Below are positions 5,860 to 9,563 of a stretch of 64,000 nucleotides of DNA, in pieces. The first letter of the stretch is position 1. Every line of letters begins with the position of its first letter. Origin of the DNA: Cytophagaceae bacterium (GTDB lineage: Bacteria > Bacteroidota > Bacteroidia > Cytophagales > JAIYAX01); NCBI GenBank assembly GCA_027488815.1, contig JAIYAX010000025.1, positions 124,001 to 188,000 of the forward strand. Direction: 5' to 3'. Position numbers and translations under genes: made by a program. The notes under the pieces are model-generated. The model did no database searches. It was not told the DNA's origin and was given only the letters and a program-made list of their open reading frames with translations.

Positions 5860-6558
5860 ATGAACCTGAAAGGAAAAAACGCCATTGTTACCGGGGTAAG
5901 CAAAGGAATTGGTCTGGCAACAGTACAGTTGCTTTTAGAGCAAGGCATGAAAGTAGCTGGCTGGGGGAGGACAGCTCCCGATTTCAAACATCCGGAGTTC
6001 CGGTTTTTCAAAGTGGATGTGGGCAATGAGCAAGAGGTTAAAACTGCCTGTAAACTCAGTTCAACCTGGTTTAGCGGTCCGGTATCTGTTTTGATCAACA
6101 ACGCAGGACTAGGCTATTCAGCATTGTTTGAAGAAACCCCAACCGATCAATGGCTGGAGATGTTCAATACCAATGTGCATGGCATCTTTTTCTGCACCCG
6201 TGAAGTAATCTCTGACATGAAAGCTCAAGATGAGGGGCATATCATCAATATCTCCTCCATCGCCGGAAATACCGGGATTGAAAGCATGGCCGGCTACTGC
6301 GGTACCAAGTTTGCCGTAAGGGGGATCTCACAATCGTTGTACAAAGAACTTAGGAATTTTGGGATCAAAGTAAGCTGCATTTATCCGGGTTCAGTCAAGA
6401 CTAACTTTTTTGATAAGATCCCCTCAGTGACTGTGAATGACAATATGATGATGCCGGAAGATATCGCCTCTACCATCCTGCATTGCCTGAAGTCACCACC
6501 CAATTACCACCATATCGATATCGAAGTGCGGCCGCTGAGGCCGATGGGGAAAAAGTAA
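5860..6558 (+). CDS. Short-chain dehydrogenase/reductase (SDR)
   Basis: 232 residues with the classical SDR layout: TGVSKGIG cofactor loop (residues 11-18), LINNAG (79-83), NISSIAGN with the catalytic Ser (about 133), and YCGTK with Tyr146 and Lys150. It is an NAD(P)-dependent oxidoreductase in the cytoplasm, resembling 3-ketoacyl reductases, but the substrate is not fixed by sequence. It is transcribed divergently from the PagL-like gene. Its last 11 codons plus the following terminator are duplicated 3 kb downstream (9496-9563), on the far side of the delta-60 gene. Confidence 0.9.
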   Translation: MNLKGKNAIVTGVSKGIGLATVQLLLEQGMKVAGWGRTAPDFKHPEFRFFKVDVGNEQEVKTACKLSSTWFSGPVSVLINNAGLGYSALFEETPTDQWLEMFNTNVHGIFFCTREVISDMKAQDEGHIINISSIAGNTGIESMAGYCGTKFAVRGISQSLYKELRNFGIKVSCIYPGSVKTNFFDKIPSVTVNDNMMMPEDIASTILHCLKSPPNYHHIDIEVRPLRPMGKK

Positions 6559-6580
6559 ACCCCGATGTAACTCGGGGTTT
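6557..6580 (+). terminator. Terminator hairpin after the SDR gene (copy A)
   Basis: AAACCCCGA (6557-6565) pairs perfectly with TCGGGGTTT (6572-6580) around a 6-base loop and begins inside the SDR stop codon. T-rich tracts follow better on the minus strand (TTTACTTTTT), so it may work in both directions. The same hairpin recurs at 9530-9553. Confidence 0.7.
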
Positions 6581-6592
6581 GAATATAAATTA

Positions 6593-6660
6593 AGAGTTCT
6601 TTCGGGTGGGAACACCCGAAAGAACTCTTTCGATTGCTTGGTGGTGGAACACCAACCAAT
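6593..6660 (+). other. Two-hairpin intergenic element, copy A
   Basis: Hairpin 1 is a perfect 16-bp stem, AGAGTTCTTTCGGGTG (6593-6608) with its complement at 6613-6628, closed by a GNRA-type GGAA loop. Hairpin 2 (6633-6660) pairs TTGGTG with CACCAA, flanked by ATTG and CAAT. A diverged second copy lies at 9419-9484. Base changes between the copies preserve pairing in hairpin 1, so this is probably a structured RNA or a structured DNA repeat. The function is unknown; the stems could also act as terminators. Confidence 0.7.
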
Positions 6661-6828
6661 GGGTAGAGGAAAAAGAAAATAACAAGGTCATTTTCACTCT
6701 ATGACCTTCTTTTTTATGATAATTAGTTAATTATTTTCTGATTTCAATTAATTTGCCAAGAAGTTCAGCGCTTTGTCTTTTGACACATGTCTTAATTGTT
6801 ATTATTCTTGCATATATAAATTTAGATC
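6661..6828 (+). other. AT-rich non-coding leader upstream of the delta-60 gene
   Basis: No credible gene in this stretch. After a short purine-rich run (gggtagaggaaaaag) it becomes AT-rich and holds the promoter candidate at 6779-6810. The whole gap between the SDR stop and this gene is 270 bases. Confidence 0.6.
6779..6810 (+). promoter_or_regulatory. Candidate Bacteroidota promoter for the delta-60 gene
   Basis: TTTG (6779-6782) and TATTCTTG (6803-6810, one mismatch to TAnnTTTG) are 20 bases apart, the expected -33/-7 spacing. Transcription would start near 6817, about 12 bases before the ATG at 6829. Confidence 0.5.
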
Positions 6829-9405
6829 ATGAAAGCTAATACCTTGATCCTCTTCCTCTCTCTCTGCACCCTGCTGTGCTTCACAGTTCAGGCCCAGTTC
6901 TCTCAGCCTGGGGAGTTGGATACTACATTTAACTTTGGGCAACAGCATAGTTTTTTCGCCGATCCTGCCAATCCTGTACCCGGTGCAGGGGCAAATAGCG
7001 CTATCTATACAACATTACTTCAACCCGATGGAAAGATATTGATCGGGGGTGTCTTCGGTAGCTACAACGGCACCTTAGGCCAACTCATTGCCCGCCTGAG
7101 TCCCAATGGCAGTCAGGATGCCTCTTTCAACCCGGGTGCTGGGCCTAATGGAGAAGTCTATTCTCTCGCCCTGCAACCCGATGGCAAGTTGCTGATCGGG
7201 GGAGATTTCACCAGTTATAACGGCAACCCCCGCAACGGGATCGTCCGTCTAAATTCAGATGGCAGCCTGGATACCACTTTTAGCATAGGTTCTGGGGTAT
7301 TAGGAGGAGGAATCTATCCATCAGTCCGTTCCATCGCCCTTCAACCCGATGGCAAGGTGGTGGTTGGAGGAGATTTCACCAGCTACAACGGCACATCTCG
7401 AAACTACATTGCCCGCCTGAATTTAGATGGCAGATTGGATTCGACTTTCAACCCAGGTACCGGAGCGAATAATATAGTCTGGTCTCTCGCCCTTCAACCC
7501 GATGGCAAGATATTGATAGGGGGAGATTTCAACTTCTACAACGGCACTTTCCGCAACCGGATCGCACGTCTTAATGCAGACGGCAACCTGGATACTTCTT
7601 TCAACCCAGGCGTCGGAGCGGACTTTACAATCTATTCTCTAGTCCTTCAACCCAGTGGCAAGGTGTTAATAGGAGGTAGCTTCACCAGTTATAACGGCAC
7701 ACCCCACAACCGGATCTCCCGCCTGAATGCCAACGGTAGCCTGGATGCCACCTTCAACCCCGGCACTGGGGTGAATAGTACCATCTTCTCCCTAGCACTT
7801 CAACCGGATGGCAAGGTATTGATCGGGGGAGCTTTCACCAACTGCAACGGCACGCCCCGCAACCGGATCGCCCGCCTTAATGCCAATGGAAGCCTTGATT
7901 CTACCTTCAACCCTGGTACCGGGGCGGGTGGTTGGGTAAGGTCCCTAGCTCTTCAGCCTGATGGCAAGATATTGATCGGAGGAGGTTTCACAACCTTCAA
8001 CGGGATGCCTCGTAATCGTATTGTCCGTCTAAATGCAGACGCCAGTCTGGATGCCACCTTCAACCCGGTCACCGGGGCGAACAATTTCGTTGGGGATCTT
8101 CTCATTCAACCCGATGGCAAGGTGGTAATCGGAGGTGGTTTTACTAGCTACAACGGGATAGCCCGCAACGGGATAGCCCGCCTGAATGTCGATGGCAGCT
8201 TGGACACCACCTTCAACCCAGGTACAGGGGCGAATGGTGGAGTTTCTTCTCTGGCACTTCAACCCGATGGCAAGCTTTTGATCGGGGGAGGTTTCACTGG
8301 CTACAACGGTACGCCCCGTAACCGGATCGCACGCTTGAATGCTGACGGCAGCCTTGATGCCACCTTCAACCCGGGCACAGGGGCGAGTAGTAGCGTCTGG
8401 TCTCTCTTCCTTCAACCCGATGGCAAGGTGATGGTTGGAGGAGATTTCACCACTTACAACGGCACATCCCGCAACCGGATCGCCCGCCTGAATGCCAACG
8501 GCAGTCTTGATACTACTTTCAATCCGGGCATTGGGGTATCAGGTGGATCAACTCCATATGTCGGTTCCATTGCTCTTCAACAGGATGGCAGGGTGTTGAT
8601 TGGGGGAGAGTTCACTTCTTACAACGGCACATCCCGTAACCGGATCGCCCGCCTGAATGCCAACGGCAGTCTGGATACCACCTTCAACCCTGGCGCAGGG
8701 GCGAGTAGTATCGTCCAGTCCCTGGCCCTTCAACCCGATGGAAAGGTGTTGATCGGAGGAGATTTCACCAGCTACAACGGCACATCCCATAACCTGATTG
8801 CCCGCTTGATTTCGAACGGAAGTCTGGATACAACCTTCAACATAGGTACTGGGGTAATAGGAGTTGGAATGAATGCAAGAGTAAGTTCCGTCGCCCTTCA
8901 ACCCGATGGCAAGGCTTTGATTGTGGGAGATTTCACTTCTTACAATGGCACATCCCGCAGGAGGATTGCACGCTTGAATGCTGACGGCAGCCTGGATGCT
9001 ACCTTCAATCCGGGAACCGGGGCAAGTAGTTTCGTTTCTTCACTTGCCCTTCAACCCGATGGCAAGATATTGATCGGAGGAGATTTTACTACTTATTATG
9101 GCATTTATCGTCCTCGACTTGCAAGAGTACTTTCCACAGGAGCTGTCACTGGATGGAGTGATGAGGGATTTATAACCGAACAAGAGTTTTCCATCTACCC
9201 GGTACCCTTTAGTAGCCAATTCACGATCCAGACAGAAGCTCCCTTCCGTTATGAAATAATGGATTTAAAGGGCTTGGTGCACCTATCAGGCATCAGCGAA
9301 AGTACTGAAGCCACTTGCCATTCGGAAAATCTGGCCATTGGCATGTATCTAGTAAAGATTACAGTGAATGGAAAAAGCCATGTGAGGAAAGTAGTGAGGG
9401 AATAG
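6829..9405 (+). CDS. Secreted delta-60 repeat (DUF5122) beta-propeller protein with type A T9SS sorting domain
   Basis: 858 residues: a signal peptide (MKANTLILFLSLCTLLCFTV, cleaved near QAQ), 14 tandem delta-60 repeats of about 51 residues (core LQPDGKxLIGGDFTxYNGT then RIARLNxDGSLDxTFNPGTG), and a C-terminal domain from FSIYPVPFSSQFTIQ to HVRKVVRE that fits the type A T9SS sorting signal (PxP start, GMYLVKI, basic end). Delta-60 repeats are predicted to form beta-propellers; the ligand is unknown. The protein is expected to cross the outer membrane by type IX secretion and stay on the surface or be released. It is flanked by duplicated hairpins and by a duplicated SDR gene end, a sign of past insertion or recombination. 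Confidence 0.93.
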   Translation: MKANTLILFLSLCTLLCFTVQAQFSQPGELDTTFNFGQQHSFFADPANPVPGAGANSAIYTTLLQPDGKILIGGVFGSYNGTLGQLIARLSPNGSQDASFNPGAGPNGEVYSLALQPDGKLLIGGDFTSYNGNPRNGIVRLNSDGSLDTTFSIGSGVLGGGIYPSVRSIALQPDGKVVVGGDFTSYNGTSRNYIARLNLDGRLDSTFNPGTGANNIVWSLALQPDGKILIGGDFNFYNGTFRNRIARLNADGNLDTSFNPGVGADFTIYSLVLQPSGKVLIGGSFTSYNGTPHNRISRLNANGSLDATFNPGTGVNSTIFSLALQPDGKVLIGGAFTNCNGTPRNRIARLNANGSLDSTFNPGTGAGGWVRSLALQPDGKILIGGGFTTFNGMPRNRIVRLNADASLDATFNPVTGANNFVGDLLIQPDGKVVIGGGFTSYNGIARNGIARLNVDGSLDTTFNPGTGANGGVSSLALQPDGKLLIGGGFTGYNGTPRNRIARLNADGSLDATFNPGTGASSSVWSLFLQPDGKVMVGGDFTTYNGTSRNRIARLNANGSLDTTFNPGIGVSGGSTPYVGSIALQQDGRVLIGGEFTSYNGTSRNRIARLNANGSLDTTFNPGAGASSIVQSLALQPDGKVLIGGDFTSYNGTSHNLIARLISNGSLDTTFNIGTGVIGVGMNARVSSVALQPDGKALIVGDFTSYNGTSRRRIARLNADGSLDATFNPGTGASSFVSSLALQPDGKILIGGDFTTYYGIYRPRLARVLSTGAVTGWSDEGFITEQEFSIYPVPFSSQFTIQTEAPFRYEIMDLKGLVHLSGISESTEATCHSENLAIGMYLVKITVNGKSHVRKVVRE
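7018..9145 (+). repeat. 14 tandem delta-60 repeats (about 153-bp unit)
   Basis: Fourteen in-frame units, each beginning at a sequence like CTTCAACCCGATGGCAAG. Most are 51 codons; units 2, 10 and 12 are longer (56, 55 and 56 codons) because of extra residues after the TFNxG segment. Neighbouring units are very alike at DNA level (for example CACATCCCGCAACCGGATCG recurs nearly unchanged), so expansion or contraction by recombination is likely. Confidence 0.9.
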
Positions 9406-9418
9406 GATGTAGTGGAAT

Positions 9419-9484
9419 AAAGTTCTGTTGGGTGGGGACACCCGACAGAACTTTATGATTGGTCAGTGGCAGAACGTCAACCAA
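9419..9484 (+). other. Two-hairpin intergenic element, copy B
   Basis: Hairpin 1 pairs AAAGTTCTGTTGGGTG (9419-9434) with CACCCGACAGAACTTT (9439-9454) around a GGGA loop (again GNRA type), 16 pairs with one G-U. Compared with copy A, two pairs changed on both sides (G-C to A-U and U-A to G-C). Hairpin 2 keeps ATTGGT/ACCAAT (9457-9484) but its inner stem is weaker. It starts 13 bases after the delta-60 stop codon. Confidence 0.7.
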
Positions 9485-9495
9485 TGGGGGATGGG

Positions 9496-9563
9496 GAAGT
9501 GCAGCCATTGAGGCCGATGGGGAAAAAATAAACCCCGATCTGATTCGGGGTTTGCGTATAAAT
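9496..9563 (+). repeat. Duplicated 3' end of the SDR gene plus terminator (copy B)
   Basis: This segment matches 6523-6590. It can be read as EVQPLRPMGKK-stop against EVRPLRPMGKK-stop in the real gene, followed by the same terminator hairpin. Of four base differences in the coding part, three are synonymous, so the copy appears to derive from the end of a related, once functional SDR gene. No other part of that gene is present here. Confidence 0.75.
9530..9553. terminator. Bidirectional terminator hairpin (copy B)
   Basis: AAACCCCGA (9530-9538) pairs with TCGGGGTTT (9545-9553). On the minus strand it is followed by TTTATTTTTT, so it looks best suited to end the STAS-like gene that stops at 9575; it also lies downstream of the delta-60 gene on the plus strand. 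Confidence 0.65.

Follow-up and report, generated by a model that had tools for sequence, protein, structure and literature searches.

Paired palindromes around a delta-60 repeat gene are probably REP-type elements of a Bacteroidota RAYT subfamily

The stretch of DNA analysed here (64 kb, the window) carries a gene for an 858-aa secreted protein with delta-60 repeats that is bracketed by two copies of a unit made of two hairpins, hairpin 1 (HP1) and hairpin 2 (HP2). This arrangement raises the question of what the hairpins are, whether a structured RNA, the borders of a gene cassette or a part of some other system, and of how they came to stand on both sides of a single gene.

The two hairpin units and their surroundings

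The bracketed gene (6829..9405, + strand) encodes 13-14 delta-60 repeats and a T9SS type A sorting domain, and its product matches TIGR02608 (459 bits), TIGR04183 (32 bits) and PF17164 (716 bits). An SDR-family oxidoreductase gene (5860..6558, + strand; PF00106 adh_short, 158 bits) lies upstream of the first unit. The initial annotation described, on each side of the delta-60 gene, a 16-bp stem with a GNRA tetraloop followed by a second hairpin. Both units are real, but the stems of HP1 are 17 bp and 18 bp long. HP1 copy 1 (6592..6629, + strand) is a perfect 17-bp palindrome with the loop GGAA and a GTG/CAC apex. HP1 copy 2 (9417..9456, + strand) starts 12 nt past the delta-60 stop codon; its 18-bp stem includes one T-G pair, and its loop is GGGA. 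A GNRA loop is present in most HP1 copies but is not fixed, with CGAA in another copy and AAAA, TTTT or GGA in related hairpins. Perfect stems (loops of 3-6) reached no more than 10 bp in 20 shuffles of a 64-kb window, and on both strands the two unit regions folded far more stably than shuffled sequence (z -5.1 to -9.6).

Counted from the apex, the two copies of HP1 differ by double changes at position 8 (T-A to G-C), position 15 (G-C to A-T) and position 17 (A-T to T-A). At position 6 the change is single-sided, from C-G to T-G. The covariation first noticed in HP1 is thus borne out by three double changes in the window, and pairing is kept across the copies in the genome. The second hairpin has, as described, the same 28-nt length in both units. 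HP2 copy 1 (6633..6660, + strand) reads ATTG-C-TTGGTG-GTGGAA-CACCAA-C-CAAT, with one C-C mismatch and two differences from the repeat GGTTGGTGGCGGAACACCAACC. Compared with the genome consensus, ATTGGTTGGTG-GCGGAA-CACCAACCAAT, HP2 copy 2 (9458..9485, + strand) has two mismatches and two G-U wobbles; it is therefore decayed, these changes are not compensated, and covariation holds for HP1 only.

A second, outer direct repeat, absent from the initial annotation, encloses the two units. The upstream repeat R (6523..6590, + strand) consists of the last 12 codons of the SDR gene, its stop codon and a terminator-like hairpin, AAACCCCGA/TCGGGGTTT (6557..6580, strand not assigned). The downstream repeat R' (9496..9563, + strand) consists of a remnant reading EVQPLRPMGKK* and a terminator-like hairpin (9530..9553, strand not assigned), and the two repeats are 87% identical over 68 bp. 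The order in the window is thus nested, R-HP1-HP2-gene-HP1-HP2-R', with the 3' end of the SDR gene duplicated outside the second unit and the reading EVQPLRPMGKK* kept.

Copies in the genome and in other Bacteroidota

Pattern searches of the window's genome gave 28 matches to HP2 with at most two mismatches, compared to none for a reversed-pattern control, and 8-9 real copies of HP1. HP2 often occurs in tandem arrays of 36-39 bp; contig C7 has a 36-bp tandem array of nine HP2 copies behind HP1, and at a second place five HP2 copies follow HP1. All of the HP1 and HP2 copies examined were intergenic and outside convincing ORFs. The hairpins are accordingly not restricted to the delta-60 gene, with about 28 HP2 and 9 HP1 copies in intergenic positions elsewhere. 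HP1 lies just downstream of T9SS type A sorting-domain genes at three loci, at 9417 in the window and on contigs C14 and C15 (L013 and L182). Positions 27,800-34,900 of contig C2 (L180/L235) hold an array of ~100-173-nt repeats that contain HP2 together with a degenerate HP1 and another palindrome, of the GGTCTCAGTGAGACGCTAAGACC type. One small toxin-antitoxin-like gene or pair occupies each interval of this array, and a second delta-60/T9SS gene fills the interval that follows.

Covariation in HP1 was scored on an alignment of nine copies from the window's genome and four copies from two other genomes, in which two of the foreign rows are one base short and leave an end gap. The score was 0.160 compared to 0.097 (sd 0.021) and was reached by none of 500 shuffles. 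Compensation was seen at three pairs (U-A to G-C or A-U; G-C to U-A; G-C to A-U), and the outermost four pairs were kept only about half of the time among the 13 copies. Because the covariation exceeds that of all 500 shuffles, selection on the HP1 hairpin, or its symmetric maintenance, is supported. Double changes can also come from self-correction of a palindrome and are, on their own, no proof of selection.

A 22-mer of HP2 with 19 fixed bases has many exact occurrences in two Chitinophagales MAGs, JAEUUZ (G291) and JAMLHH (G292). It was also found in a few more Bacteroidota MAGs and as single matches in unrelated genomes, some of which may be due to chance. A search of 290 further genomes from the order to which the window's genome belongs did not find the 22-mer, and no HP2 was found in IMG/VR. 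By its own terms the initial annotation would be refuted by a lack of further copies or of conserved pairing in relatives; further copies are present in other Bacteroidota.

Palindromes at RAYT loci

REP-associated tyrosine transposases (RAYTs) are small domesticated transposases that spread short palindromic repeats and keep copies of them next to their own gene. In the window's genome, five RAYT-like loci found with Pfam PF01797, and the RAYT at C4:43682, carried neither HP1 nor HP2. PF01797 misses the relevant RAYT subfamily, and the RAYT protein of G292 was used as the query instead. At the sole Y1-transposase locus of G292 (L138, contig C34), a transposase-like ORF of 428 aa has inserted into a RAYT gene and divides it into two halves. 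Two REP copies lie directly upstream of this gene, and inverted, REPIN-like pairs of HP2 and a sister hairpin, GGTCGGTG-GCGGAA-CACCGACC, lie downstream, so that the HP2 22-mer flanks a RAYT in this genome. The sister hairpin has 22 matches in G292, five of them within 2.7 kb of the locus. Of 395 Bacteroidia genomes, 138 had relatives in the protein search, and C4:43682 is one of these relatives. The RAYT-like identity of the subfamily is based on a profile match to PDB 4er8, the E. coli TnpA_REP (E 5e-7), on scores of 74-75 bits against NCBIfam NF047646 (REP-associated tyrosine transposase), which narrowly miss its curated cut-off of 80, and on the conserved motifs NHIH and YIHNNP. The subfamily mostly reads WER/WQR.

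Many RAYT loci have palindromes of one format, with a stem of ~10 bp and an apex of GTG (or GCG), 3-6 nt and CAC (CGC). When loci were split into subfamilies by protein score alone, a perfect hairpin with a GTG/GCG apex was present at 30 of 41 G292-like loci, the other 11 having no perfect GTG hairpin. These 41 loci contained 82 hairpins in 130 kb, of which 67 were within 300 nt of the gene, and hairpins were on both sides of the gene at 15 loci. No such hairpin was found at the 16 loci assigned to the other subfamily of RAYTs (Fisher test against the G292-like loci, 2e-7) or at four IS200-like loci, and 12 SDR control loci gave a single match, the window's own HP1. In the window's genome, two RAYTs of the other subfamily (L019 and L020; contigs C10 and C17) have flanking palindromes of their own, CCC(C/T)CGTTTGCAACG(G/A)GGG and CTTCGGGATTTGTAATCCCGAAG, and a third (L018; C6:158770-159267) contains one in-frame TAG and is perhaps decaying.

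In a tree of the RAYT proteins, the stem sequence follows the clade. The clade that includes G292 (support 92/88) has GGT(T/C)GG(T/C)G stems, apart from one member without a detected stem, and the stems of other clades are TGCAGGTG, GGTCTGTG and GGTTCGTG/CGTGAGTG. The HP2 stem is of the type of the G292 clade. The one subfamily RAYT of the window's genome, C4:43682, falls in a different clade, and its flanks hold eight palindromes of the GGTTCGTG type (GGTTCGTG-N3-CACGAACC) rather than copies of HP1 or HP2. As this RAYT has a different stem, HP1 and HP2 look like orphan REPs in the window's genome. Among the RAYT loci examined, none was directly bracketed by HP1; G291 has one HP1-like palindrome near HP2 and near a remnant of the other RAYT subfamily. 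The shared format and this G291 palindrome suggest that HP1 may also be a RAYT-linked REP, a weaker link than that of HP2.

HP1 and HP2 are thus short, multi-copy, intergenic palindromes whose format recurs at RAYT genes, where the stem follows the clade, and HP2 itself lies beside a RAYT in another genome. Collectively, these results suggest that HP1 and HP2 are likely REP-type palindromes, non-autonomous repeats whose ssDNA hairpin a RAYT/TnpA_REP of a Bacteroidota subfamily would recognise, and that the paired hairpins are probably mobile-DNA debris and not a new RNA. The initial annotation proposed selection for RNA or single-strand DNA structure. Maintenance of the HP1 hairpin agrees with this proposal, and a role as ssDNA is a better fit than one as an RNA gene, given that palindromes of this format bracket genes for an ssDNA transposase, the RAYT, across the class. 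The common tip (GTG, a 3-6 nt loop and CAC) and the clade-specific lower stem would mean that each RAYT reads its own stem. A putative RAYT activity would have recognised, cleaved and spread HP1 and HP2, and the matching RAYT would have been lost from the window's genome or never have settled there. In the window HP1 and HP2 form a compound, BIME-like unit that follows the SDR gene and recurs behind the delta-60 gene. The brackets of the delta-60 gene would then be two copies in neighbouring intergenic spaces, one of which may have come from a local duplication that also copied the 3' end of the SDR gene. The compensatory changes could reflect the need of the transposase for a hairpin, aided by self-correction of the palindrome at replication.

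This reading gives the puzzling hairpin pair a place within REP/RAYT systems and suggests a sequence rule for Bacteroidia, namely a common GTG/CAC tip with a stem that follows the RAYT clade. With such a rule, the pairing of stem and transposase can be tested directly, and many natural enzyme/hairpin pairs become available for study.

Alternative readings and known systems

The compound units could instead be the borders of a mobile gene cassette, with the delta-60 gene mobilised either by recombination or through the action of a RAYT on a pair of units. The initial annotation proposed such structured borders, and the nested order in the window speaks for them. On C7 a TacA/GNAT toxin-antitoxin pair is likewise enclosed by two units, which share 96% identity over 250 nt; on C2, HP2-containing repeats at spacings of 731, 841 and 664 nt lie between small toxin-antitoxin genes (PIN, RelE-like and others) and run into the second delta-60/T9SS gene; and HP2 arrays on C28 bracket an HTH gene and a hydrolase. 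However, many copies bracket nothing (C14, C15 and C5), the orientation relative to the enclosed gene is inconstant, and no recombinase is known to act on the units, which makes a cassette origin of the delta-60 locus unlikely. The bracketing could reflect cassette-like movement or plain duplication of REP-rich accessory islands, and its recurrence around toxin-antitoxin modules offers a clue to the assembly of such islands. We consider it a speculative idea, with little probability, that compound REP units border small accessory-gene cassettes in some Bacteroidota as an integron-like system without attC. If this were true, RAYT activity or direct HP1-HP2 recombination would move toxin-antitoxin pairs and delta-60/T9SS genes.

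A transposase-independent role as RNA 3'-end elements, stabilising or processing the transcripts of upstream genes, would suit the position of HP1 directly behind the delta-60 gene. It would also suit the HP1 that lies 9 nt past a T9SS gene on C14, where it forms a doublet ahead of a terminator-like hairpin, the HP1 ~145 nt past another T9SS gene on C15, the strong folding and the prevalence of GNRA loops. Other copies, however, lie in divergent or upstream spaces and vary in orientation, related hairpins cluster at RAYT genes, and an Rfam scan of the window, which found a tRNA alone, gave no match for HP1 or HP2. We therefore regard this role as very unlikely to explain the hairpins; a 3'-end role near T9SS genes may be a secondary function of REPs. 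That HP1 and HP2 are ordinary intrinsic terminators, alike by chance, is scarcely credible: the terminator-like hairpins AAACCCCGA/TCGGGGTTT do adjoin both units, but a terminator scan of the window found no + strand intrinsic terminator at HP1 or HP2 and scored HP1 copy 1 on the - strand only, and the repeats are related in sequence, arrayed (HP2 in tandem) and common to other orders.

Integron attC arrays resemble the C2 region, where toxin-antitoxin modules are separated by imperfect palindromic repeats. Inspection of HP2 and the C2 repeats showed that they do not have the R''/R' order (AAC...GTT), HP2 having GTT on its 5' side and AAC on its 3' side, and identity with attC was rejected as these boxes do not fit. 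The REP-type reading finds parallels in the REP/REPIN/BIME and RAYT systems of E. coli, Pseudomonas and Stenotrophomonas. There, too, palindromes of 20-40 nt occupy many intergenic sites, are arranged in tandem or inverted, occur next to an HUH (Y1) transposase and have a stem specific to the type of transposase. In contrast to classic REPs, HP1 and HP2 lack the GT[AG]G (GTAG/GTGG) foot at the 5' side, the foot of HP2 being ATTGG with the 3' flank ATGGGG and HP1 having no constant tetranucleotide; they combine a common GTG/CAC apex with a clade-varying stem, and no cognate RAYT was found in the window's genome.

Searches of the literature on REP and Cytophaga found nothing relevant. The statement that no named element has this form does not hold, since REP sequences have it and since "atypical secondary structures" on the flanks of Bacteroidetes RAYTs are known (PMC6006769). 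In the passages of Quentin et al. 2018 (PMC6006769) considered here, TnpA_Y1 of subclass 2.6 from Bacteroidetes has atypical structures that lack GT[AG]G on its flanks, and copies of these structures are also found elsewhere in the genome. From those passages, subclass 2.6, or RAYT group 5, resembles the G292-like subfamily in being mostly from Bacteroidetes, in its atypical flanks and in the motifs NH[LIV]H and YIH[QN]NP; the G292-like subfamily differs in reading mostly WER/WQR, and subclass 2.6, subclass 2.4 and the sequences described in that paper as misclassified in 2.2 are all candidates for its assignment. The GTG/CAC apex and the clade-specific stems are not stated in these passages of PMC6006769, and the kind of element to which HP1 and HP2 would belong is already known.
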